Source: Siderastrea siderea
Lineage: Eukaryota > Cnidaria > Anthozoa > Scleractinia > Rhizangiidae
DNA: 64,000 nt
NCBI GenBank assembly: GCA_964030785.1
Contig: OZ034979.1
Coordinates: forward strand, 36,506,484 to 36,570,483
Direction: 5' to 3'
Shown here: piece by piece, positions 11,571-63,297 of the stretch
Layout: each line of letters begins with the position of its first letter
Position numbering within the stretch: position 1 is the stretch's first letter
Notes under the pieces: generated by a model
What the model was told of the DNA's origin: nothing
The model's database searches: none
The model's input: only the letters and a program-made list of their open reading frames with translations
Made by a program: the position numbers and the translations under genes

Positions 11571-13847
11571 TTACTGTTATTATTACTACATATAAGAAAA
11601 AACAATTACTTTCATTTTCTTTCTTTATTTACATCTTTTTAATCAACATAACCTACTTATTGATTATTACTACAACTACTTTTTGGCTGCGTTTCAGCTA
11701 AATGATCATCTGTTCCGCTGCAACATTAACAATGATGTCTCATATTTTTGACTTTACTTCGTGATTACGTAATAAACTTTTCTCATATAAAATACGAATG
11801 ATTTACTGATTTAAAGTTCTCGAGTGACACCTTTACGTATGGGAAAACGACTGACACATCTACCAATGGCTCTAAAAGATATTTCTGATGCAATTACCAA
11901 AATAGATCCAAAAATAATTCTTCAACTAAGATTTAAGAAAGTGACTGAGTGGTCGAGAATTAAAAGCCCAAGCGTAAATGTGGTGATCTTTACAGCTTTA
12001 GGCATCATAAATATACATCAAGCCTGATAACACTCAGGAATTAAACCCATTAAAGATACCTCGTCTCGATTATAACAGGTCTAATTGGTCATCAGGTTCC
12101 GAATATCACCGAAGATGATCCGAACTTAATCGAGGTTAGGTGTTACGAACGAATCCACGAAATGAGGTGAGGTTTCCCCACTAAATCTGCGACTGTGATA
12201 TTGTATACATATTTTTTTAAAATCCACCTTTTGAGTGAAATCTGTGCTCGTTCAGTGAAATAAACGTGCTTAAAACAACTGCAGCCAAGAAGGACACCTT
12301 CTTCGACCCGTAACATCCTAAGATTGATCAACACGTGAATTCTCCTTATACAGCACTACAAATAAGGATAATAATAACGAAGCATACAAGTGATGATAAT
12401 AAAGAACAAATGGTTTGCGGGTCTTGACATGGTGCGTTTGCATGAAATGCCTCCTGGAACATCAAATAGTTCAATTGTGTTGATATACCACCAAACGCTT
12501 CTTACTAACGTACTAACGTACAAACGCATGCATTGGAATTGGCCAGGAGAATTCCTATTTTCATCTTGGCACCAAACAATTGCTTTGAGCACTTTCCTTA
12601 AAAAAGCGTAATTCCGAAAGCTGTACAGAGTCAGTTGCAAGATTTTAACCTTGGCACCTTTCTCTGAATAAAATTTTACATCAAGTATTTAAACCTCATA
12701 ATTAGCACAGAATTTCAAAGGATTAAAAAAATTCCCAGTCTACTAGCACCACGAAGCAATTAAACCTGTTTATCATTAAATAAGACCGTGAAATACCGAG
12801 AAAAATATTTACACGTCATTCCCTGCAAGGGGAAACTTGTCGATTCAACCTTGAGATCCAAATTACAAAACTGATATTATCATTATTCTTAAAAACAGAC
12901 ATAATATTTTCTGGATATTTTAGCAGCCATCCCCAGCTAGTCTTAGAAAACAGACAGTGTTTTGAATTAACACTACGCTCATTTCAAGATGAAACGCGAA
13001 AAATGGCGACAAAAATTCCACACTAATGTTACAGCACTACCTCAAAATGGATACTGCTCCAGCTCGGCTGCATAATACTACAAGTATGTGTAGATTTTCA
13101 GATTTTTCCAAACCATTTGCAGGCACTCTTTGATGTGTGTGTGTGTTACTGAACTATTACAAGCACGGAATTTTTGCCATTGTTCCGCAGACTTCACTTC
13201 TTGGGGAGCGCAGTACCACCAAACAATGACTGTTTTCTAAACATTTTCTGTCACAATAGAATGAGAACACTTGAAGCTATTGTAACATTATTTGGTTTCT
13301 CTCCCCAAAATGGAAATAAAAATTACCATCAGTCTGAGAGCAAAAATCTAAATCCTTAATGCAGAAAGTCAGACTGCTGAAAAATCTTACCTACTCCAAC
13401 TTTTACGTTACTTGGCACCCTTAAACCCAATAGCATTTAATTTTTTTTTCCTTATTATATTAGTAGCTCTTTTAATTCCCTTAACAGACTTAAAATGGAC
13501 TAGCTTCTAGCCAAAATATATTGATCAGATACAAAATGGAATATATAGATATATATAGATTTTAATTATTTCCCTCCCTAATGGTTTTATCATGTCACCC
13601 AACATTTCTAGATCAGGCAATTTTTGTTGCCATGGTCAACAACAAGCCTGCACAAATTCTAAGAAATTACTCATTACTCTATTACTTAACTCATTGGAAC
13701 ATCTGATTTTGAAACGCATGCAGTTGCCATAAACCAAAAGACGTGGCTCTTGCAAGATGGCATAAGCAACCATTTTTTTTAAATAGGTTAAAAAAAGCAT
13801 CATACAAATCCCAGCAAGGCATGACTTATCTTCTGTGCTACTGCTGC

Positions 13848-13924
<77 letters not shown>
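13848..13924 (+). repeat. (CAT)n trinucleotide microsatellite
   Basis: About 25 near-perfect CAT units occur in a row, immediately followed by a degenerate CACGACCACCACC tail. The stretch translates as poly-His in one frame, but nothing suggests it is coding. It lies 3' of the forkhead gene, possibly within its 3' UTR as (ATG)n on the minus strand. Confidence 0.95.
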
Positions 13925-14300
13925 CGACCACCACCATAACCTTTCTGGGAATGTAGTTACTTTAATCTCACACCTTATAAGCATGCTCCTCAAAACACAG
14001 GGTGCTAATGATTGCCAGCTACACTGACCATTAAAATGATGCTTTCAGCAAGTGACAATTTCAGGCTGGGCAAATAAAATGTGGTGCAACTGGCAGTTCC
14101 ATGATATCCAGAACTGGATCCTGGAACTGGAAAATGCATCTTTTTGCACGCGTACACGAGACAGTGCAATTATTCACCTAGTACAAATACCACAACAGAC
14201 CACAGGACATAAACCCACTGATAAAATCAAGTAACCTTTCAAAGACAGGCAACCAGTTAGCTGTTGTTAAGGTAACAACATTTCAAATTTTCAACTTCTG

Positions 14301-17300: not shown

Positions 17301-18640
17301 CCTGTCGCTATACTGTAATAACATCTGAGAACCAAAGTTAAAATCTCAAACAATGGTTGGGTTTTGTGCTGCTGTCAACTGTCTTAGAAGACTCATCCAG
17401 AAGTTACAAAGAAGTTTATTTCAACAGGTTCGAAAGCTCATTAATTAGTGGATTTCCATCCACTTTCTTCTTTGATTCCTGTTTTTTAGGGTTGACACTA
17501 TGAATGACGGCAGTCAAAACCCAATCATTAGTTTTCTTAATAGGTTTCAGCTTTTGGTTTTGTGACTTAAACCCTGAAGTGTGACCATTTAATACAGTGT
17601 ATGTACAGTTATGGAGCAGTACTTTTGCAAAGTGCTGTTTTACTGTGTTAAGATGTACGAGGTGGTATGGTGGTTCTGCCCTGTGAGACAATTCCAAATT
17701 CATAAAGTGTTAAGTTGGACTATGGCCTCTCTTAGGACTCAACAATATGTATTTTTTAATTTTTTATCTGTAAATCATGTTCTTAACCCTTTGACTCCCA
17801 AGAGTGCCCAACATCAAAATTCAAAATGATAAGCAAATTTCAATTTGTAAAATACTTAAATATTATTAATATTAAAAAAATAGTACCTTGTGAAAGTACT
17901 GCTGACAAGGTTTTATTTGAATGGTCACTCCATGGGATTTCATCCACAGACTCAGAAGTTAGAAACACCTAAATGTTGACATGACTGACTCTAGGAGTGA
18001 AAGGCTTAAGGTAACTCATCTTGTACTTTGTATCTAACATGGTCGGGTCTCAGGCGTATATATTGGGACTCACCTGTCCTTTATCTTTGTCCACTTTCTT
18101 AAAACACTTGTTCAGTGACAGGTTGTGGCGCACTGAGTTCTTCCAGCCGAGTCTCGCATCCCGGAAATATGGAAAATGCTCCATGATCCAGTTGTAAATG
18201 TCCTTTACTGGCAATTTCTTTCCAGGTGCTTCCTCAATAGCCATGAAAATCAGTGAGGAAAAAGAATAGGGAGGCTTTGATGGACTCTTCCGTTTGTTTA
18301 CTAAAGAGTCAGGGGAGAAAGGTCCTTTTGCCTGCCCTCCTCTGGGCGGGGTCTCAAAAAGGTCGCCATTTGCATCTCTTGAAGGAGACATAGGTGGCAC
18401 AGTTGCCGACACTTCAAAGCCTTTTAAAATGTCATTGTTTTGTAACCAGTTTAGGCTTGTTAAATCATCATCGGGGTCACCTTTCTCTGTTCTGATGGCA
18501 CCAAAACAGCTGGAACTCAAGTTAATTTTCGGACTTTCATCAAATGAGTTTCTAAAACTTGAACCACCCAAAGATGTACTGAGATAGGGCTTTGGATGCG
18601 CCTTTAGTTTGTCCATCTCTGGCTTGCGTATTGGTGGCAT
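14301..18640 (-). CDS. FOXN3: Forkhead transcription factor, FOXN3-like (complete, 6 coding exons)
   Basis: Coding exons on the minus strand are 18640-18074, 17051-16906, 16425-16406, 16017-15928, 15261-15102 and 14724-14301 (stop TAA). Phases agree and give 468 residues, against about 490 in human FOXN3. Family landmarks: the N-terminal MPP..KPE; the FOXN2/3 block [16 protein letters not shown] (60-75); and the forkhead domain at about 122-215, with recognition helix [12 protein letters not shown] (166-177) and [12 protein letters not shown] in the wing. Further on are TPPPSP, STPPEV, an acidic Ser-rich region, DSGYGQ and a C-terminal ADALLELAN that matches the AAGSLLHLAG of FOXN3. It binds DNA in the nucleus as a repressor-type factor in vertebrates. 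I prefer the ATG at 18640; the seven exon bases 5' of it lack another ATG. FOXN2 and FOXN3 are vertebrate paralogues, so the cnidarian gene probably represents both. Confidence 0.93.
14804..15010. mobile_element. Copy of a dispersed repeat ending in 'AAAGGGTTAA'
   Basis: This shares motifs with segments at 6490-6600, 38705-39183 and 40330-40741. The common features are a GTATTCTCCTTA-like start, a block resembling 'TGATCACTTTCTTTATTCTCATCACTTG', and an end in GGGATTAAAGGGTTAA. It lies in the forkhead gene's last intron. It has no coding capacity and is probably a short non-autonomous element. The class is unknown. Confidence 0.5.
15388..15398 (+). repeat. Poly(C) run
   Basis: A run of 11 C residues in a forkhead-gene intron. 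Runs like this also occur at 26666-26683 (C) and at 18772-18784 and 38728-38743 (G). Confidence 0.9.
15431..15627. mobile_element. Palindromic MITE made of two inverted ~80-bp units
   Basis: Unit one (CTGGTTTCCTTATGATC onward, 15431-15510) is repeated inverted as unit two (15548-15627, ending ATATGGAGACCAG). Their reverse complements agree through the central TGCTGGAAAAAA-GTTCAG block. A ~35-bp spacer separates the units. No reading frame is present. It sits in a forkhead-gene intron. Confidence 0.7.
17540..18000. repeat. Two degenerate copies of the 'GTGTGACCATT' repeat, opposite orientation
   Basis: At 17565-17645 the block reads ACCCTGAAGTGTGACCATT, then GGAGCAGTACTTTTGCA and GTGCTGTTTTACT. 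At 17884-17970 the same elements appear reversed (AAAGTACTGCTGACAAGG, GAATGGTCACTCCATGGGATTTCATCCACAGACTC). Both belong to the family arrayed at 36.5-36.9 kb. They are intronic. Confidence 0.65.
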
Positions 18641-20511
18641 TGTCAACCTGCGTATGAAAAAATATCTTTCTTAGTTAGGTGCATACTAATGAAAGAACAA
18701 TCCATGAGAGCCAAGACGTCTCTTAATGATCTAGGTACCACAGGGAACTGTAGAGCATGGGGGAAGGAGTGGGGGGGGGGGGGGAGCCAGCACACAACAT
18801 TTGTCAACATCCTAGCACCTAGCAAGGGGAACAGGATTCAAGAGCTCTGCTGAACTGCTTTCTCTCGTGTCCAAGAGGGATACTTAAAAACATATCACTG
18901 CAATGCGCTTGCCATATTAACATGATGATATAAAGTTCAGTCATGCAAAAGTGGATTTCTCTGACTTTCAATTGAAAAAATATATCCTTACACTGCAAAG
19001 ACATCTCTATTTGATATGTGGACATTCTCACATATGAAAGCACTGATGGCACCAAAATCACACCCTACCTACACTGTTATTTTGTAGATCTAAGAACAAA
19101 AATATTGCACTACAAAGACATTCAAAATATTAAAAAGTGGAACTTGAAAGCACTAAATTAGCCTAAGCTTTGAAACATTTCTTGACAATGATGGGAAAAA
19201 TCAGTGTAACCATTGGACAGTTTTTGGAAACCTTCAGAAATCTTCATAAAATACTTGTAAATTTTTGGAAAATCACCGCAATCTTCTTAATGAGTGTACA
19301 GATGCACTTACTCACACCAAGTTGAAAATTTGAACAGGATTATTTTTTACACTGGTCAGATATTATTCTACATCTTACATGTATGTACCAGAAGTTGCTG
19401 TGTCATCAGCCTATAATTTCCATGTGAAGCAGACATGAATTTAAATAATTTTATATTGAACAGCAACTGTTTAAATACAACAGGTAATTATATGAATTTC
19501 ACTTTAAATACATAATTCTTGTGAGATGAAAAACTCTCAAAACCTTGGTGGGTAACAATTTCAGTTTTCTTTGTTTTTCACATAAAATAACAAACAGTTC
19601 TATGATTGAACACAAAAAAATCACTAGGTTTAACAAAGAGCAAGTTCATCTACGACCACATAGTCTGCATTTTTTATTTAAATATTCATAACATGAAACC
19701 ATTTTAGATTTTAGTCACCACAGACAATGATTATAATAATTATCTGACAAGTGACTGCAGGATTTTGTTCCAGGAAAACAAACAAGAGCAATGAACAAGA
19801 TTAAGAAAAATAGTTTCTTCTCCTGTACCCTGTCCGGACAGTTTCTACATATATGTATATATTTTAAGTAAGCATTTTAAAAAGTGTAATTAATTTTAGA
19901 ACTTTTGATATTTAAGATCTTTATTTGATATTTAAGATGGCAGCTTTGGCTTATAAATTAGAGGCATGAAAATCACCTGGTCATTAATGTGGAGGGTCAA
20001 CAGTGTATCATGCAATAATAAAGCACATTTTTTCAGCCACACAAGTTGTTAAGCCATGTCGATTTTGACAACTTTTTGAAAACTTTTTAATGGCTTCCAT
20101 GTCAACAGTGGCCAATTCAATCACAATGTAAGAACTATGGGAGGTGGCGCTGTCGATTATTGGAAGGTGAACATGGAAATTGTCAACTCTGCCTCTCTGA
20201 CATTAACAGTTGTTGCACTTTGATTGGCCAGTGGAGATGGAGGCCATCAACAAGTTGCCATGGTTACCCACACTTCAACAAGGTCTTCAAACAGAACCTT
20301 CCTCAGTTTAATGTGAGGCCACCATGGGCATGCCCAAGAACATAAAAAAACAAACAAACAAACAAACAAAAAGAGAAACAGACACACAAACAAGAACTTA
20401 CAATAATCTGATTGAATCAGACATTTCAGCAACTTGGTTGGACGATGTCGGATGTTGGTTGACTAGTAACTCAAGCTCTGGTATCACGTATGTCAGTTTC
20501 TTAAGATATTA

Positions 20512-46113: not shown

Positions 46114-46719
46114 CTAGCCCATTATCGTTGCCACTTGCTCAAAGTTTTCAGTGGTTTTTGACAACTTTTTGACATCGGTGCAGTGCATGGCATCGTGAAG
46201 CCGAAAAAACAAGTCAAATTTGAGCTGAACATAGGCAGCTCACACAGCCCGGAGCTCAGAATCTGGTTTCTGTAGCACACATGAAGCAACAACGAGCAGG
46301 AGTTCTCCTGGATAGTATGTTCGACTACAGCTTCGCCAGTACTTGATTATACATTTGTGTGGAAAGACCATCTTGAACAGTCTTCTGTCCAAGGACCGAA
46401 CAGCACGGCAACAGACTAGGTTTTAAACCACCGGCCTTATGTGGAAACTCCGATACTCTGGTCACTTGATCCATCCTGCGCTACACAAACCGTGCCAGGA
46501 ATCCAAAGTTGTGGGTTATGGACTCCTGAAGGTGTATTACAAATGAACGATTGAGAGCATCAAGTGGGAGGGGAGGGGAGGGAGGGATCGAGTGGCTTGC
46601 TTTTTTCATATGTCGCAGAGAAATGAGCCCTTGCTTCTTTCGGCATTCAGTTATTTTATTCGTCGTTGAAGTTGACATGTCAGGGTAGGAAAACGCCCAA
46701 ACTGTTATTAAAAAAAAAA

Positions 46720-46720
<1 letters not shown>

Positions 46721-46771
<51 letters not shown>
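46721..46771 (+). repeat. (CA)n microsatellite
   Basis: About 25 perfect CA units after an A-rich run (AAAAAAAAACC). The long frames on both strands here translate only the repeat. Confidence 0.97.
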
Positions 46772-52292: not shown

Positions 52293-54858
52293 ATGTTTAG
52301 ACTGCTTTTTGTAGTGTTGTTGACGACTTGTCAACTGTTTCACCTTGGCCATTTTCGTCGTTCAACTGTCATGTACAAGAAAGAACTCAGCAACAAGGAT
52401 GCTTTGTGTAATGACGGCTCTAACGCTGTGTATTATTTGGGAGTCCAAGACCGTTCCAAATGGATTATATTCTTGGAAAGTGGGTCGTACTGCTTGACGA
52501 AAGCTCAATGTAATACAAGATATAGGAGCAAGACAACTAACGTTTTGATGACATCGAAACGCATGCCAAACGCGATCACCGGTAGAGACCTGTTATCGAC
52601 GAATGTGAACGAAAATCAATTGTACTACGATTTTTCTCGCGTGTTGATTCCTTATTGCAGCAGCGATTCGTGGCTGGGTACACAAACAAAATCAAACATA
52701 TCTAGTCTGCAAAATAGCAGCCCTGTGGAACAGTTTGTTTTCAGTGGAAAAATCATTTTTCAAAGCGTCATTTTGGAGTTGTTGAACCGGGATTTGAGCG
52801 AAGTGCAAGAAATTGTGTTTGTTGGAAGTAGTGCTGGAGCCATTGGCGTTTTGAATCATGTTAAATGGCTAAAAACTGTTCTGGTCTCAAGGAATATAAT
52901 CGCAAAGCTATCTGCGATCATCGACGGTGGATGGTTTATAAATTTCCAGGAAAGCATTGCATCAAAAATAACAAAGGAATTCTTTGAAATTTCAAAGCCG
53001 TTAACTGGCGCATGCGCAGACTTCACTTACGGATTCCCATGTTGTTTTTCAGCTCCTTGTATGATTACACGGGGATACTACCCTGCCGACGTGACCACCA
53101 TGTTTGTGTTCAGTATGTTTGATATTTATATAGTTGGAGATGCTATTCAGCGCCTTGCGGAGAGAGTAACGGTGGCAGAAAATGGAGCTAGTGATTTATT
53201 AACAATGATTGATTTATATGGAGGAGCAATGAATCAATCACTGCTTGTCATTAACTCATCAAATGTCAGTGTTTTCGTCCCTGCGTGTTTTCAACATACC
53301 TTCTTCAGTATGTCGAGTTTAAGAGAGGAAGGTGGCGTACTATACTACGACAGAGTGTTCACTCAAGGAAATGTTTTATTCAGGTATGTAGAACCTTTGA
53401 GGGCCGTTTGTTTTTACACGCAATTTTTCATGTGATTTTTAAGCCGATTTCTATTATCGTGTGCATTCAAATCGCCTTTGGAAACTACAGGCAATTTTTG
53501 GTGCGATTTTCAGTGATTTTGATGCGACGGGAGTATGGCCGGGGTGACACATCCCATATGCTATATTCCCTTCGCTATACAACACTTCAATTGGCAATAA
53601 AAAACCTCTTGAAACTGCTCTAAAATCGCAGCGCAAATCGACTTTAGAATTGCTGCTTTGTAAACAGCGCTATTACTTGTCTTACCCTGACACACTGCTA
53701 GCAAATCGTTTGAACGCCAAATGTTTGAACTTCGTTTGTGGACTATCATAGCGTCAATATATCTCACCACGGCCTCGTTGGTAGGCGGCCAGACTTCATA
53801 TCAGTCGGGGGGTCATAAGCTCGTACGCCAGGTGTTAAAATAACAGACAAGATCATGCCAGCCGTCTCGTTTCAGTTCAGATTGTCCCGTTATTGGGAGG
53901 TGACGATCAGTCGGCCAATGTCTTTTGAATGTTTCCGTGCTAAACTGTACTTAGAAATGGACACGAAGGCGGTTTTCAATTGAGTGTCCGCCAAAGCAAT
54001 TACTTTGGCCAATCGCAAGAGTCGTATAGAACACAACGAACCAATCAGAAGTCAAAGCAAATACATATCAATGGTTCCCAGCTCACTCATAGTCTGAAAT
54101 GTCATCTCTCTAGCGCAACTGATCTAAGATGCAACTCGTATTGATTGTATTTCTTATTGGTTGAGAAAGTACCGCGACCTGTTTTTAAACCAATGAAACA
54201 GCGAACTAAAACAAAACCAAAGCAGACTCGAATTACTATTGACCGCTCTATGCGCCCACATCACCCATCGAAAAAGAAAGGTAAACGATTCCTTGTGTTT
54301 TGTCCTGTTCCAAGTTATTGTGCTTTAGGTGGGTGGAGTCAGATCATGATTGGACAGTTGTTGGCTGCTATAGGCATCTCAGCATGCTGAATTGTAATGT
54401 GCATTTAAATGGGATTTTCAAGTACAATTGCGCTACCTTTACCAGTTTATAGTATGTTTAGAACTCACGCTACATTCTTATAAACTTCTGAAAATAACTT
54501 ATTCAAAAAATTTTCCCACAGTACATCTAAAGAGTCCGGCACATGGGTAACTACAGTGATTCGACGTGGCAACAAAACCATAAGCTTACAATCCACTATC
54601 CTAAAATGGGCAAAGGCACGTGATCAGCCTGTGAGAGTAATTGACAGCTGTCTTGGAGCCATGTGCAATCCCACGTGCCCAGACAAGCTCGTTTTTGTGG
54701 ACACCGCCATGCACTGGGGCGAGGTACTCAATGGAGTGGTCGTATTTTTGTCCCTGGTACTCACACTGGTATCTGTTGTGTTAAAGATCTCTTTCGTGTT
54801 TCAGTCTGTTATTCTACAGCGAGCTCTAATGCAGCATCTTGATGAGAGAAAATCTCAG
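52293..54858 (+). other. Notum/pectinacetylesterase module of the fusion gene
   Basis: Two exons encode residues 1-476. Matches to Notum in order: CNDGSNAVYYL (39-49), KWIIFLESGSYC (56-67), the SRVLIPYCSSDSWLG block (115-129), FVGSSAGAIGVL (176-187) with the GxSxG nucleophile Ser180, DGGWF (211-215), SMFDIY with probable catalytic Asp277, and PACFQH with probable catalytic His335. The many cysteines fit a secreted, disulfide-bonded domain. In known Notum the oxyanion region reads EGGWYC; here it is ESGSYC, so a glycine and the pocket tryptophan are replaced. A hydrophobic segment (LNGVVVFLSLVLTLVSVVLKISF, about 433-457) follows the domain and would anchor it with the esterase outside the cell. 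Confidence 0.85.
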
Positions 54859-57800
54859 GTAGAACACTTGTTAAAAATGCATTTAGACTTTATATTAGCC
54901 TGCGTAGCAAGCGTTTCCGTAAGGCTTTCCGCACGTTCAAGGCATTTTTTGCTTTTTGGCCGCGCGAAAATTAGGGCAAGCCCAAAAAAGGGCGTGAAGG
55001 GGGAGGGGAAGGGAGAGAAGGAAACCTTCCTTCACTCGTCTTCCCTCCCCCCTCCCCCTCCTTCAATTTTGTTTCGCCCTTGACCCAATTTTCGCACGGC
55101 CAAAAAGCGAAAAATGCCTCTCAAACGGGCAGAAAAAGCCTACGGAAACGCTTGCTGCGCAGGCTAACTTTATATCCAATGTCATTTAAGTTAGCAATGA
55201 AAGATGGATATAAATTTAAACACACCAAAGACAGTCCACTCGCTCATGAGAGCACTAAAGGTTGATACCTGACTGTTTTGGAGTCTATCTGTACTTTTGA
55301 ATTCAAACATTGTTAAATCATGAAAAAATTTAGAAATATTTATAACACTTTGCTCTACAAGACGATGATGACATTTTTGCGTGAAAACTCAAAACGATAG
55401 TAAAGGGGAAAAGATGAAACTAAACAGCAACAACAACAACATAGGTTTCGGATGAATCCTCTACTTTTAAACAGTAAAAGCTAACAACTGGCTTAAAAAT
55501 CATGGCCAGTGTACTTATGCGATTCAGGAAAAACACACTGTTAAAAAAACAATCAAAAGCAAAACTAAACCACCACGTTTCCGCCGTTTTTGTGTGTGTG
55601 GCCCCCAACCCCGCTACGCAGCTGCAGGCAACTTTGATTAAAAGAAAAGGACTTGAAGAGTGCCCCCGGATTGAGGGGCGCTGAAAAGAGAATGACCCGG
55701 AAAACGGGTGGAGATATTAAAAAAGACGCCTCATCCATCCTCTTCCCAGGTCTCTTTCAACCTTTTAGAATCTTCCTAAAGCCCAATTCTCCTCCAGTCT
55801 TCAGTTCAAGAGTTCCTTTTGAGTGCCTGCGGTGGAGACTCCTTCGGTGGAGACTGGGTATGGGTCACATGTTTATCCGGGCTTACCACAGGTTTAATCT
55901 TCTCCCGCGATCACTTCATATTTCATATTTTCCTCCGCTTGACACAGGTTTCTTCTCTTCTCGCGATTGCTACGTATCTCGTGTTTTCCTGCGCTTGGCA
56001 CAGGTCACGTGAATTCCGACGCTTAGCATGAGTTGCATAATTTTTTTTAACAGTGTGGTCCGATGCCAATTTTTCAAATCGATCCGATACGATATATATA
56101 TTGGTATATAGATTGATATATATCGATATCGGCCCACAGCTGGTCCACTGCGTTATCCGCGTTTGTTATTACTGGACGGATGCGATCACTTTGGTTTGAT
56201 TTTATTGTAGCAGGAGCGGGCTCCTGATTGTAGTCATTAGCGAACGGCTACATTTTCTAACTTCTTTCGTTCTTCCCTTCAGTTCTATGTTTGTGAACCT
56301 ATTGAGCCAATAAACATCCTGTACTCGTCACCAGACATTGCTAAACATTTGCGCCCCCTCGGTGATTTCGCAACGATGCCACGAAACAACACCAACGGAC
56401 GAAAAAAAATAAACGGAGAACACACAACTCATGGATACACAGCTAAAGGATACAACGCAATATTTTATAGAACTGTACACTATTTACACATGGCTTTCCG
56501 AGCCAATAATCAAGGTGATAACAGATCACCCAAACAAAATAAGGACGACTTCTATGCAAACCGAGGCGATTCCCAGACAAGTGCAGAAAAGTTAAATGCT
56601 TTTCATCTGGAACACGGCTTGAAAGGCTCCTCAGGGGATTGCTGTGCCTCTAATAGAAGTAAAGATTTTTGCACGTATGGTATTCATAACGCAAAGCTGA
56701 AGTTTAAACAGGGAGAACTGGTTGCCATAGCTGGAAAGTACAGAGCAGGAAAAACCACATTACTACAGCTCCTGAGCGGACGAATGATGTGTGGATGCAG
56801 GCAGGTAAGGGGGCACTGAAATGCTATGAGATGCCATGGTGATCTGGCCTGGGGTGTGCAGTCGACATAAAAGCTTTTAACTAGGGCTCAAGTTCAAACG
56901 TAAACAAAAAAGGCCGAGTTTATTATATAATTTGAGCGGGTGACGTGAGTAAGTCATATCAGCGTGTGAGTTTCGTTGACCGTGAATGTTTGCATGTATG
57001 ATGAGAAACAATGTTGAAGAGCTAGCTAAGAGGACAAGGTCACGGGAACTCCGAAAACTACATTTCTTTTGCACGAATTACTTGCCTACCTGGTCTTTCT
57101 CTCAAAACAAAGACAAGCTAAATGATGAAATGTTTCTAAAATTTACGAGTTGCTTATTCCTTCTTTTCTGATTCCCAAGGGACACTTGTTTTTCGACGGT
57201 TTGAGGCAAGAGAAAGTCCAAGAGAGATACGTCAGCAAAATTGTCTACCTCTCTCAGTTCACGCTGCCTTATTATGGAGAACTCACCTTGAGAGAGTATC
57301 TGACACTTGCTTCCTTGATGAGAATACCAAGGAATGCAAGTTACAAGGTTGAACGAGTCGAGCAAGTGATTTGTGAGGTATGTTTGAGAAAGGGGGAGAG
57401 ATGACGGGAAATCCCAAGAAAAAGGCCGAAGGAACAGGATTAATGGGGGCGGAAATCGGGGAAATTTGTAAGACGAAAGTGGGTGGAGCCGCCAACCAGG
57501 GGAACAGAAGTCGGAAGGGCACGGAAAAGGAGAAGTTAGACCCCCGCCCACACCTCTATCAAAGTTATCTAAAGTTTAGCGAGATGTTGTAAAAATAACT
57601 AATAAGGCCGACAGTGGACTTCTTTGGCAATCGTAGCCAGAGACAATGATAAATGATGTTAAGTGTTTACGATTTTTTAGTGACGGAGCAGTGGGTGCTA
57701 CTTAAGTCCCATTGCTACAGTCTTAACCAGAAGTGGTACTGCCTAAATCGGCCGTTTGAAAATCCTAAGAGATTTTTTATGTTGTGTGCGATAATCGTGA

Positions 57801-60800
57801 GCAAGTTGTAGCTCTGAGTCACCCGAGAAAAATGGCGTCGTAGGCTATTCGCAGAAGCTATGCCGTCTAAATCGGTCCCAAGCTCCAAAGAAACCCTTAC
57901 GACCACCTCCCCCACCGTACTGCCCCCATCTCTTCCTGGACGGAATATGGTCTTTCGTAGGATTTGCCTCCGCTTTTGCTTGTTGGTCTATCCATCAGTT
58001 CGTCAGTACAAATTAATTCACCAGATTGGAGGAAAGTAATTCGAAAAGTGTTTTGCGTTTTGTTTCAGATGAACCTAACCTCTATAGCAGACACGACGTC
58101 CGGTGGATCAAACAACACGAATCTCACTGAGTTACAGGTTTGACATCGATCAGGATCAGCAAACAGGCCAGTATCTGTTTGCATAGAACACCCGTAAATG
58201 AGATGGAGGTTAAATGCAGTCATATCCTAGGTATCACAGGTTTTGATGGAGGGCTCAGTCCGATTAGCAAGTGTTAGAGATACTAAAAGAGCGCCCGAGA
58301 ATCCTCTGAAATGCAGTGAATGCACAAAGCCCCTTCTAAATTGTGGGTGTGTTTTGCAATCGGATCCAAGCTCATTTGTATACTACGAGGCTACTGATTT
58401 CCTTTCTAGTTTTGGCATTAATTAGAAATCGAAGTTTTGCCTTCTAAGAATCGAACTATTTGATTTTCAGAAACGTCTTGCCTGCTTAGCACTGCAGTTC
58501 GTTACCAGACCTCTCGCTATTGTTTTGGACGAACCAATCACAGGTAAGAAAAGTAGGTTAGTGGGAAGGACCTGGGAAAATTCCTTTCGTAGAAAAACAA
58601 ACCTTCATTTTAGAAACTCAAATTTTGGAACAAAGAAGAGATTTTTTCAATTTGAAGAAGAAATTACAACTTGAGTCTAATCCTGAAGAGGGCCTATTAT
58701 AGGGGGTTGCACATTCCCCAATCCGCCTTACTTTTCTCCTTCCTAGACCACAAACAGCTTTCATTTTCTCCTAAAAATCGAAACCGCCTTTATAAGCGTA
58801 GAACATCACGGCCGCCATCTTTCTAGCCTATTATCAAATTACCTCCCTGCAGGGGGGGATAGCAGGAAAACTCCACATTTTCATTTCCTGCACCTTTTCG
58901 GCCCCTAAAAGGTACTCTCTTGTCCAGGGAGAAGCTTCAAGGAAAATAAAGCGACCGCACAAATGGTTTGAAGAACCGCCACCAAACACGGAAAGACCGA
59001 AAACCGCATGATAAAGTTATAGGTTTCCGCAACCGCGCAATAATTTTTTAACTGTAAACCGCCACATTATTACGAATGTAACCGCAAACCGACACTCAAA
59101 ATTGACTTAAACAGCCAAACCGCCAGAGTATAGGAGACCCTTATCGAATGTTCAAACGGGAGAGAAATCCTCAAACTCCTGCAGCGAATGCCGATTAAAC
59201 TACAGCCTAGAACAAAAACTATTAAGGCATGTCGTTTTTGGACTTCATAACCCTGTTAATACTACTACGTTTTATGGCTCCTTTGTGGTCTGCATTAACG
59301 CGGGTCTTGACTTCTATGGCCAGAGCTATTACACTACCGAAGTGTTGCCCAGTTTTAACATCGTTTTGCCATTAGGAACTAAGGCATAATTGTAGTTTTA
59401 ATTTTTTTTTGCAGTGAAAATGACAGTGAATAATTCCTTGATTCATTTCAGGTTTGAGCCCGGTTTCGTCCATAGAAATGTTGAAAATTCTAAGACGATT
59501 TTGCGATAATGGACATTTAGTGATTATAGCCACGCAGTCTTTGCCCCAGCAGACAGCTCAACTCTTTGATCAATTAGTTCTACTTGCTGATAAAGAGGTA
59601 GGCGAAGAATATGGCAATTTATCCGAAATAGCTTAGTTAAAAGTTCAATATAAGAAAGAGGAAGGTGCAGCTTTGTTTGGTTTTGTTGTAAGTAAGAAAA
59701 GGTAAAATAGTACTCAAACCACAGGAAATTCACGAGGCCAGAGCTAGAGTCACAGACAGCCCACAGTACCATAGCTTTACCCAACTGCTATAGCATGAAA
59801 CAACCAGGAGTATTACTACCCCCTCCCCCTTGGGTAGGATGCTAATCCATCGCAGGGCTACCTCCAGAAATTTGTGGATACACTCTGAAAACATGAGTGG
59901 TGCTTACCTTTCTCACGGAAAATTCCAATTACAGAAATTTTTAACCAAATGTTGCAAAACCAAACGCAAAGTTAGCGCCTTAGCCTATCTCGACAAGCGT
60001 AAAGAACCCTATGGACCACAAAGAACTCTAGACGATTATATGCAACAGGCGCGAAGTGCGGGAAAACGCGTGCAATTAACATGAGGAATGTGAACGAAAA
60101 TGAGCCCAATAACCACCTTCAACTTCTATTAGGTAATTTACAACGGCAATCCTGAAAGACTTTCAGAACATTACAGCAGAGTTGCGGGGAATGACCATGA
60201 AGAAAAGAAGGGTTTAGAAGGTATGTTATTATGACAACTTTCTGCATTTTATCTTTGCCTGTACAAAAATACGTGCGGCCTCAAGCTCAGTTTCTGAAAT
60301 AATTTAATTCCCCTTATTTAAAATCACCATATTTCGACCTATGTCCAGGTTGCGAACCAGCTACTACACTAAGAAAATAACCCTAACTAGCCAACTTTAT
60401 TATTCATATCATTCTCCTGATCTTTCTGTTTGAAATATTTTTAACTCGGCAAAATTTCCTCACACTCTGAATGTTTTTCCTACGATTTTGAATTCTACAT
60501 CGTTCATTGACACTTATGGACTCTTTCGATTTCTTAAGATATTGTTTCAGATGTTCTTCAAAGGAAAAAGATAATAGAGGCCGTGATGGCAGAAAAGCCT
60601 TTCGAAGCAGTTGCAGAAATAGATGCTACCCATCCGAACAAAACAAAGAGAAATATTATGTCAACCCCGCAAAATAGGTACAGTACGAGGCAATGCTACG
60701 CGTGTGGAAACAAATTTAATGCTTATATTTAATTTGTTCATACTCAATCGTAGTTTATGCTTCATATAATCCTAACAGGGTGTCTTGTTTTTCAGGAAGG

Positions 60801-63297
60801 AAAGCGGTGGAATCTTTACCAGGCTTTTTGTAATAGACTACAGGGCCTCGTTAACATGCAACTTAGGACAAAGCTTATACCTGCCAATCGTGTTCTCTCT
60901 ATGTGGATTAACTGCGGGCATTGTTTATTGGCAATCAGATACGCCAGTTCTTGTAATGACGGCTTACTGCGGTTCGTCTATCCCCAGTCTTCTCTTTCTC
61001 GGCTCAGTTCTTCTGAACCGAATCAATAGGAGCCTGGAGGTGAGTTTGAAAAACTGCCTTCTGCTTTCCCAAAGCACCGAATAACACAGTTCAAAACACA
61101 AGAAAACAAAGTAAAACACTATCAGTATTTTCTAGTATGATATCATTGGTTGAAATTTCTGAGGCATCGTCTTCAGAAAGGCTCTATTGATAACCCATAC
61201 AAACGCATTTTTTGTAAAGTCCGTGACAACCCATTCAAATGATTTATAGTACACCAAACGTCACAGAACAAATTGTTCTTCTGTCAGGTGCCACTGCTTT
61301 GTTCTGTGATAGAAAATCTGAAAAACAACTAAAAAATTCCTTCGCTTAAGTCTAAGCTATCCACAGTGACAGTGCTAGCTTCTGCTTCCTGTTTCATCAT
61401 GATTTATTTTAACCGATTGTTGAACAATTTTTTGTAGCCAGGAGTCAAACTTGCATAATCAAAAGCCTAAACCATAAAGAACCATGTAATTAATAATAGT
61501 TATTTACACGGAAATTTTCTGTTTTGTCTCCCAGATCCGTCAACTGGATTCTCCAGAAAATGTCGGTTATGCTCACGAACACGTGATTCACACGTTTATG
61601 AGTGCAACCACTGCTTGTGTTTTACCAGTGCTCGCGTGTTCAGCTCTGACGTATTTTATGGTAATGACTTCATATAACTGGTGGCAATTATTCCTGGTGA
61701 CTGTAATTTCCTTGGTGTTGAATCAGACCTGGATTGCAGTGTATATGATGGTCATTTACGCTAATCCCAGTAACGCGGGTCATTGTTCTCTCTTGGTGGC
61801 AATAGCAGCTGGATTTGCCAGCGGATTTATTGTGACGAAACAACAGATGCCTATAGGGTGAGTAGTAATTCTACACTTCACTAATACAGCGAATTTCAAT
61901 TGGGTGTCGCTAATCCAAAACCAAAAACATTACTCTGACCAATAGAAAGACGCAAGTAACACAATAAGCCAATCATAACTCGTAGCAGAAACATGTAACT
62001 GGCGTCAAGCGCGGGAAAACGCGTGCGACCAAAGCACGATTGGTGTTTTCTTTTTTAATTTCTGATTGGTTGAGAAAATGCCGCGAGTTTTTCAACCAAT
62101 TACATCGCTTAGCAACGCAAAACCAAAGCAAACGCAAATTACTTTCGACACTCAATTGGAAATCACTCCACAAAGGAAAAAGAAATCAAGTATTTCGTTT
62201 TTCAAGAGCAATACTGGGAAAGCAAAGAGCCCTTCGTGAAATTAATACTCTGTAGGTAAGATGAACGTTTATTCGTTTGTCTCCCGATGGAATCGCTTTG
62301 AGTTGTTGATCGCGACGTTTCGACTGCAATACTGCTAGTCTTCATCAGGCGATGAGGTCGATTGTTTACGTGTCGCTATTTGTAGCATGATGATGGTTCG
62401 CTGCTATTGGTGCACATTCACAATAATTGTGACACAGTGTGACACATTGTGTAACATCTTTAATGACATTAATACTCTGTAGTTTCCTTAAGAGTTCTTT
62501 ATTGCTGTGAATGCCCTTCTTTGAGGATGTCATCCACAGACTTAACGGTTAGAAACACTTTCTCCGGCAAAATAAACCGCACCACTGAAAAGTATTGTTT
62601 ACTAGCTTTCATTTGAATTGTAACACCTTACGATTTTGTCCAGAGACTCGAAGGGTCATTAAACAGTACAGCCAACATATCCAGCATGATTTAGGTGGTC
62701 ACACTTTACAATTTCTTCCACATATTAGAAATTAGGACCAACTTGTGCAACAAATGCCTCGAGTTCCGATTGGTTCAGTTGAAACAAAATTTGCTGGACA
62801 GGTGCATCTCACGTGATGTGTTCCTGTTCGGTTGAATTACATGAAGTAAGGCTCCGGCCTAAAGGGTCCAACATTTTCAATCAATACCGTTTAACATTGT
62901 TAAATTCTGCAAATTAAACTCTTTTTAATGATGTCGAATGGTGTTGAATGAAGTTTCATTCCGAACAAATATTCGTACAACAAAGTTGTACCCCACAATG
63001 TTCAACGATGTTGAATGCGTTTGCCAAGGGGCCTAACGGCAAAATAAGCACTTTCTTTGTGAACATACCATTTAGACTTAGAATATATTCAATTCACTGT
63101 TTTTTCTTTGTAGGTATAATTTGTTGTTCTATATCAACCCCCAGCTGTACGGCTATTCAGCGATCGCTAAAGTCTTGTTACAAAATGCTCGTATGAAATG
63201 TGAATTCGAGTCTCCTTTGAACTGTATCAGTAAAGATGGGAATGCTGTGTTGGCCAGATTTGATTTTGATTCAATCAATCCTTATGAGCATTTGATG
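52293..63297 (+). CDS. Notum-type carboxylesterase fused to an ABCG-type ABC transporter (3'-partial, 12 exons)
   Basis: Exons are 52293-53383, 54522-54858, 56283-56804, 57180-57377, 58069-58137, 58471-58543, 59452-59597, 60133-60220, 60551-60677, 60796-61039, 61535-61857 and 63114-63297. Every junction keeps the frame, giving 1134 codons with no stop; the last donor (ATG/GTAAGT) leads off the window. Order of parts: signal-anchor-like N-terminus (1-20), Notum/pectinacetylesterase domain (about 30-420), membrane segment (433-457), linker (460-610), ABCG nucleotide-binding domain (about 610-815) and ABC2-type membrane domain (from about 885). I chose the Met at 52293 because it starts a hydrophobic leader; an in-frame Met at 52218 is also possible. 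Function is inferred: lipid/acyl-ester chemistry coupled to a membrane transporter fold. The alternative, two adjacent genes, is disfavoured because no stop ends the esterase part and no good start opens the ABC part until after its first in-frame exon codons. Confidence 0.82.
53971..54243. mobile_element. Copy of the 'TTTCAATTGAGTGTC' MITE (intron 1 of the fusion gene)
   Basis: The left end TTTTCAATTGAGTGTCCG and the internal block AAAACCAAAGCAGACTCGAATTACT match the copy at 61893-62165. The right terminus is eroded. Confidence 0.65.
54895..55167. mobile_element. MITE with TTAGCCTGCGTAGCAAGCG ends
   Basis: The terminal inverted repeats TTAGCCTGCGTAGCAAGCG and CGCTTGCTGCGCAGGCTAA continue inwards with GTTTCCGTAGGC-like and GCATTTTTCGCTTTTTGGCCG-like arms. 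A purine/pyrimidine-rich centre contains GGGAGGGGAAGGG. It begins 37 bases after the exon-2 donor. Related fragments lie at 7392 and 10629. Confidence 0.8.
55850..56010 (+). repeat. ~63-bp imperfect tandem repeat
   Basis: Two to three units share CACAGGTTT, TTCTCTTCTCGCGAT, TTCATATTTC and TTTTCCTCCGCTTG. They lie in intron 2 of the fusion gene. Confidence 0.55.
56283..59597 (+). other. Linker and ABCG-type nucleotide-binding domain of the fusion gene
   Basis: Five exons (residues 477-812). After a polar, Asn/Lys-rich linker comes LKFKQGELVAIAGKYRAGKTTLL, with Walker A GKYRAGKT at 627-634. The Q-loop region is KIVYLSQFTLPYYGELTLREYL, matching the 'QDD.L...LTVREtL' of ABCG proteins. The signature position reads TNLTELQKRLA instead of VSGGERKR. 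Walker B is LAIVLDEP with Asp759 and Glu760. GLSPVSS replaces the D-loop GLDSxSA. IIATQSLPQQTAQLFDQLVLL aligns with the ABCG 'TIHQPs..iFelFD.lLLL' but lacks the switch histidine. The family assignment is firm. Full ATPase competence is doubtful because the signature and H-loop are altered. Confidence 0.85.
58850..59110 (+). repeat. 'AAACCGC' repeat-rich intronic stretch
   Basis: Irregular copies of AACCGC/AAACCG(A/C) (AGAACCGCC, GAAAACCGC, GTAAACCGCC, CAAACCGACA, CAAACCGCC) occupy about 180 bases in the intron between the Walker B and D-loop exons. It is probably part of a transposon. No ends were identified. Confidence 0.5.
61893..62165. mobile_element. Complete 'TTTCAATTGGGTGTCG' MITE, ~273 bp
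   Basis: ATTTCAATTGGGTGTCG on the left pairs with CGACACTCAATTGGAAAT on the right. The interior holds a second inverted pair (GACCAATAGAAAG, and AACCAATTACATCG with GATTGGTTGAG). Relatives are at 46895 and 53971. It lies in the last visible intron. Confidence 0.75.
62314..62348 (-). other. Hammerhead-ribozyme-like motif
   Basis: On the minus strand: CTGATGA, an extra A, GACT, an 11-base loop, AGTC, then GAAACGTC. CTGATGA is the consensus hammerhead core. It occurs in intronic repeat sequence with the same arrangement as the motifs at 39.7 and 47.97 kb. Confidence 0.35.
62500..62760 (-). repeat. Degenerate copies of the ~110-bp dispersed repeat
   Basis: In reverse orientation: GATGTCATCCACAGACTTAACGG, GCACCACTGAAAAGTATTG, TAGCTTTCATTTGAATTG and TTACGATTTTGTCCAGAGACTC. 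A second partial unit continues to about 62730. Confidence 0.65.

Follow-up and report, generated by a model that had tools for sequence, protein, structure and literature searches.

A Notum-type esterase and an ABCG half-transporter predicted in one gene of the coral Siderastrea siderea, and a probable old animal family of such fusions

The question raised by this locus is whether a single polypeptide of Siderastrea siderea joins a Notum-type esterase to an ABCG transporter, or whether two adjacent genes happen to lie in one continuous frame. The locus occupies positions 52293..63297 of the window, by which is meant the whole stretch of 64,000 nucleotides that was analysed, on contig 14, in a genome of 831 Mb. 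A covalent fusion of an acyl-esterase and an ABC exporter connects two activities so far treated apart; its age bears on the origin of Notum-type enzymes and perhaps on Wnt control, and the gene predicts a common substrate for a surface esterase and a transporter. Taken together, the observations are probably best explained by an old animal family in which a Notum-type carboxylesterase is fused to an ABCG half-transporter, with the mechanism proposed below.

Gene model and domain order

The twelve exons described in a first-pass annotation of the window were confirmed on splicing (Table 1): they comprise 3402 nt, or 1134 codons with zero stops, all internal exon borders have GT donors and AG acceptors, and the phases agree throughout. 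The gene was found to extend by one more exon, being incomplete at 63297; a thirteenth exon, about 150 bases beyond the window and located in the flanking DNA (L025) through homology to the Montipora orthologue P0008, contributes the final membrane segment and the stop codon, which ends at window-equivalent 64222, and completes a protein of 1157 residues.

Table 1. Exons of the fused gene, with the part of the predicted protein that each encodes (window coordinates)
Feature	Position	Strand	Encoded part and basis	Paralogue equivalent
Exon 1	52293..53383	+	Signal peptide and most of the Notum-type PAE domain (PF03283); 66% identity to Montipora P0008	
Exon 2	54522..54858	+	End of PAE domain (CNPTCP) and single membrane helix; hydropathy, homology to P0008	
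Exon 3	56283..56804	+	Start of ABC part, linker, Walker A (GKYRAGKTT)	E3+E4
Exon 4	57180..57377	+	Nucleotide-binding domain, Q-loop region	
Exon 5	58069..58137	+	Nucleotide-binding domain, degenerate signature NLTELQ	
Exon 6	58471..58543	+	Nucleotide-binding domain, Walker B (VLDEP)	
Exon 7	59452..59597	+	D-loop and H-loop region, Gln replacing His	
Exon 8	60133..60220	+	End of nucleotide-binding domain	
Exon 9	60551..60677	+	Connector	
Exon 10	60796..61039	+	Membrane domain, first part	E10+E11
Exon 11	61535..61857	+	Membrane domain, middle	E12+E13
Exon 12	63114..63297	+	Membrane domain and loop	E14
Exon 13 (last)	64151-64222 (window-equivalent)	+	Outside the window; homology to P0008	

Hydropathy analysis of the 1157-residue product gave a hydrophobic start (residues 1-19), a hydrophobic helix (432-450) and six more hydrophobic regions between 910 and 1151, after the nucleotide-binding domain; a stretch within the esterase domain (267-285) was also narrowly over the threshold. 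When the spliced protein was searched against Pfam, the PAE domain (PF03283) was found at 31-340 (E 2.4e-40, 139 bits against a curated cut-off of 26.6) and ABC_tran at 611-762 (E 2.2e-13), and ABC2_membrane (PF01061) was matched at 920-1094 at 22 bits (E 1.3e-4), under its 26.9-bit cut-off. The orthologue P0008 was above all three Pfam cut-offs, with 36.4 bits for ABC2_membrane, and its predicted structure has a membrane helix at 429-470. The order first suggested, from esterase through a membrane segment into an ABCG nucleotide-binding domain and membrane domain, was thus borne out by Pfam and hydropathy.

By the structural criterion applied, the esterase part has the NOTUM fold, and it is rich in conserved cysteines. 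In comparisons with the PDB the matches were taken up by NOTUM, that is, by the esterase part only, and a viral library returned mostly ABC matches. Separately from this fold comparison, the best solved matches to the ABC part were ABCG8, ABCG16 and ABCG5, with ABCG5 chains matched across both domains. The residues of GSSAGA, FSMFDIYI and PACFQH, which we take to be the catalytic Ser-Asp-His of NOTUM, are intact in the window copy when it is aligned with two arthropod NOTUM rows; one fused protein, P0087, is without the nucleophile serine. Walker A and Walker B are likewise intact in the window copy, and its signature motif is not of the LSGGQ type.

Paralogues and the junction between the halves

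A search of the genome gave eleven PAE matches, which correspond to six window-type loci on contig 14 (one split in two) and four distant PAE genes, three of them about 25% identical and the fourth represented by a piece on contig 1. At the five paralogues, as at the window gene, a membrane-helix exon is followed by a Walker A exon on the same strand, so that all six loci share the order; in a genome-wide search with 102 of 193 candidates scored, the membrane-helix exon was found only at window-type loci, at least six in number. In each paralogue the esterase is joined by a linking exon of 349 or 352 nt, in the same phases, to a short exon of 97 or 100 nt. This small exon opens the ABC fold, has no initial methionine, and goes from phase 0 at its start to phase 1 at its end. 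In the window copy the small exon and the next are apparently merged as one exon of 522 nt, the first residues of which align with those of the orthologues.

Complete open models were obtained for the window copy and for paralogue P4 (a full open model of 1204 codons without the C-terminal exon), and P2, P3, P5 and P6 were modelled by exon-by-exon matching. P2, P3 and P5 correspond to P4 exon for exon, from the esterase through the last membrane exon. P6 (G000:C14, about 20.65-20.66 Mb) has a frame shift in esterase exon 1 and a shortened E5, carries E9 twice in tandem, and was left out of the trees. From the window gene it is 0.64 Mb to the nearest member of a four-gene cluster and 0.72 Mb to P4, and the window-type and P4-type genes are thus linked; Oculina and Stylophora each apparently carry both types on one contig, to judge from contigs of equal length.

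Values of dN/dS were low in every part. The pair P2 and P3 gave 0.19 over the esterase with its helix, 0.22 over the nucleotide-binding exons and 0.18 over the membrane exons, and the pair P3 and P4 gave 0.22, 0.12 and 0.19, respectively. Purifying selection acts on both halves in P2, P3 and P4; the estimates rest on paralogue pairs, the window copy having no close enough relative.

Because five paralogues keep the order and the junction, and the coral orthologues are collinear with the window gene, the fusion is more than chance, and the locus is almost certainly one gene, predicted to encode a single polypeptide. It is highly improbable that two neighbouring genes, one for a Notum-like esterase anchored in the membrane and one for an ABCG transporter, share their phase by accident: an internal ATG at 56376 in exon 3 would permit a separate ABC-only transcript and intron 2, between the halves, is about 1.4 kb long, but the junction is conserved in paralogues and coral orthologues alike, the paralogues' linking exon opens the ABC fold without a methionine at its start, homologues from other sources hold both domains in one open frame, and an apparent assembled transcript of another species (P0027) carries the entire fusion. 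Two adjacent genes had been named beforehand as the pattern that speaks against a fusion, and it is contradicted by the homologues whose esterase and Walker A share a single open frame.

The PAE match on contig 1 (L024) was considered as a further window-type gene and rejected, being distant (33% identity or less to proteins of the window type) and showing no ABC exon in the 10 kb examined; it consists of scattered pieces of a distant PAE gene. The other PAE genes (L001-L003) have YCDG in place of YCSSD, and L002 has a long His-rich stretch ahead of the domain.

Fused proteins in other species and their known relatives

Proteins carrying PF03283 together with ABC domains, for which the first-pass annotation had proposed a search, were found in cnidarians and sponges and also in a ctenophore. 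Residues 1-500 of P4, used as a query with the 8000 best-sharing candidates scored, matched at least 70 proteins, 44 of which had PF03283 plus PF00005 or PF01061; a second protein search, with P0027 as the query, gave 9 matches. P0027 is labelled a complete ORF, and the format of its name is presumably that of a transcript assembly. The nearest relatives of the window protein were proteins of stony corals (Montipora, Oculina, Stylophora and Porites), the main membrane exons being 62-69% identical to Montipora. Among these models, Stylophora P0010 is unrelated at its C terminus and begins exon 2 incompletely, the first part of that exon being absent, and Oculina P0007 is without the connector. 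Montipora has two isoforms, of which the shorter (P0009, isoform X2) skips the Walker A exon with the frame kept, which may yield a version of the fused protein deficient in ATP binding.

The named holders of the fusion were Porites, Oculina, Stylophora, Montipora and Clytia among cnidarians, Corticium, Oscarella, Oopsacas, Geodia and Ephydatia among sponges, and the ctenophore Bolinopsis; the lineages of five of these were looked up, and the phylum placement of the others, like the reading of 'scpid' names as Sycon, is our assumption. No bilaterian was found among the named fused proteins in the matches listed, where insect and crustacean NOTUM appeared unfused. Scans of prokaryote and viral contigs gave matches to the ABC domain only, the esterase being uncovered in the best 80 of 278 prokaryote loci and in 11 of 11 viral loci among the matches listed.

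Twenty-three proteins of 662-742 residues listing both domains were examined. All 23 have CxQH and 22 have a strict Walker A, with the variant GPSGAGKTS in the other; 20 of 22 stop 80 residues or fewer past Walker A, and most of the tails resemble intron reading at the coral E4/E5 border. Judging from their sources and tails, esterase, helix and Walker A would lie in one apparently unspliced exon in all 23. One protein of 772 residues (P0070) has a divergent esterase, a hydrophobic stretch and an ABC domain in the same order at 28% identity, and might be a non-animal relative, which would make the fusion older. It was also observed that P0062 (Cyprideis torosa) is a gene model fusing isocitrate dehydrogenase and PAE; predicted fusions can be annotation errors.

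When the transporter half was used as the query, 34 of the best 120 of 1836 matches ranked above the first fungal protein, and 30 of these 34 had PF03283, compared with 0 of the remaining 86. The four without PAE were P0076, which duplicates part of Clytia P0075, two proteins within the coral clade, and Sycon P0085, which is basal on a long branch. The nearest ABC relatives after the fused clade, within the same best 120, were fungal PDR (ABCG-type) transporters, at about 26% identity and with no esterase. Fungal PDR transporters usually have two nucleotide-binding and two membrane domains.

Four rows (Schistosoma NOTUM, badly cut; Oculina_b; P0070; P0041) were dropped before a tree was made of 36 PAE domains, in which a weakly supported branch (57/38) had all the fused domains to one side. 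The window protein grouped with members from Oculina, Montipora and Stylophora (100/100), and the remaining coral copies formed the sister group of this window subfamily (95/99 for all ten coral rows). For the ABC parts, a quick tree of 44 sequences, made after eight fused rows were dropped (P0001, P0005, P0011, P0012, P0013, P0028, P0070 and P5) and with 9 of the 86 non-PAE proteins as outgroup, set 16 fungal and slime-mould halves apart from the fused family (SH-aLRT 100); three proteins that lack PAE were placed among or beside the fused ones. For 21 chosen fused proteins, the esterase and transporter trees had 15 of 18 splits in common, compared with a mean of 0.31 and a maximum of 3 over 2000 runs with shuffled labels; the two halves share one history of inheritance. 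As the tree grouping also matches sponges, corals and hydrozoans, the fusion probably predates the split of sponges, the ctenophore and cnidarians and would be as old as their common ancestor.

Several known systems resemble parts of the fused protein. Compared with NOTUM (PF03283; PDB 4uyu, 4uzk), it adds a membrane helix and an ABC transporter and is missing the tryptophan of the GGW motif; NOTUM proper is secreted and has no membrane anchor, whereas the window protein continues into the hydrophobic helix and the ABC part. Like the ABCG half-transporters (ABCG5/ABCG8, ABCG1) it has one nucleotide-binding domain ahead of one membrane domain, and unlike them it has a predicted extracellular esterase at the N terminus and an extra helix, and in the window subfamily the signature is degenerate. 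The database entries 'Protein notum-like' and 'ABC transporter G family member 2' (Stylophora) belong to the same family by sequence, order and trees, as does 'ABC transporter G family member 8' (Geodia); these automatic names reflect one half only.

The literature searched, by titles and the starts of abstracts and with most subscription journals outside its scope, held no description of an esterase-ABCG fusion. PMC4169000, which deals with Clytia Notum, has no occurrence of 'ABC transporter', and PMC3091767 contains both Pfam accessions. The view that no protein of this architecture had been described therefore holds for the papers found, but fused proteins were already in the databases under their automatic names. 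Each domain is known, and the combination appears to be a newly recognised architecture that is itself old and conserved.

Predicted topology, degenerate ATPase motifs and proposed mechanism

Because the protein has a signal peptide, many conserved cysteines and one helix after the esterase, topology rules make it very likely that the esterase stands outside the cell and the nucleotide-binding domain inside. The signal peptide would direct the esterase to the cell surface, and the single helix would bring the chain back to the cytosol for the ABC domain, followed by six membrane segments. ABCG half-transporters function as dimers, so a pair of esterases would sit above a single translocation path: two half-transporters would pair, with the esterase domains above the outer mouth of one transporter, and the esterase would strip an acyl group from a substrate during its export or presentation. 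Such a coupling of deacylation to transport is put forward tentatively. The earlier suggestion of an extracellular acyl-esterase tethered to a lipid-transporter fold stands as regards the single polypeptide and the predicted outside position of the esterase, and is weakened by the absent GGW tryptophan and the degenerate ATPase signature.

The degenerate signature is a property of the window subfamily (n=4), in which N[LF]T[EK]LQ replaces LSGGQ in all four members and the H-loop histidine is kept in one, with Walker A and B intact in all four; outside it, all 21 fused rows that have data show [LI]SGGQ. The stem of the subfamily is 1.14 changes per column long in the ABC tree compared with 0.59 in the PAE tree. 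The ABCG5/ABCG8 pair is a heterodimer with one good and one poor ATP site. By analogy, the window copy, with LTELQ for LSGGQ, would probably pair with an LSGGQ paralogue such as P4 to give one good and one poor ATP site; that it is the ATPase-impaired half of a heterodimer is a reading to which we would give slightly less than even weight.

The same changed motifs and the long ABC stem would also fit a window copy with a working esterase and a non-transporting ABC part, acting as a membrane anchor or as an ATP-dependent regulator of the esterase. This is a possibility of some substance, although Walker A and B are retained in every member of the subfamily and the conservation of the main membrane exons with Montipora goes beyond the needs of a mere anchor.

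It is rather unlikely that the fused protein acts as a Wnt deacylase at the cell surface, with a transporter half that merely holds the enzyme and sets its membrane domain. In NOTUM the tryptophan of the GGW motif sits near the oxyanion hole; it is present in 2 of 2 NOTUM rows and in 0 of 28 fused rows with data, the window copy having Ser at the position, and Wnt is therefore not assumed as the substrate. The retention of [LI]SGGQ outside the window subfamily would also be unexpected for an anchor.

Decay of the window copy to a pseudogene is very improbable: its ATPase motifs are degenerate, decayed duplicate pieces lie about 20-26 kb downstream and the paralogue P6 has a frame shift in exon 1, but its open frame is complete over 1157 codons and the same degenerate signature type occurs in three other coral genera, a sharing among four genera that argues against recent decay.

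To return to the preferred reading of a coupled esterase and transporter, it can be extended, more speculatively, to an early-animal family, absent from or lost in bilaterians, in which esterase and transporter would form one machine that removes the acyl group of a lipidated substrate at the outer mouth of the transporter, and which in corals may have split into pairing catalytic and ATPase-degenerate subunits.

Some further features were observed in and beside the window. The decayed duplicate of the window gene, with in-frame stops, lies at window-equivalent 83713-84921 (minus strand, L026) and 90046-90189 (plus strand, L029), and part of it was also matched as G000:C14:36590301 in the membrane-helix exon search. 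Within the window, a Forkhead domain (PF00250, E 2e-30) was found in an open frame at 18053-18670 on the minus strand, and long simple repeats at 13639-14024 and 46484-46771 are read as Asp or His runs and Val-Cys runs.
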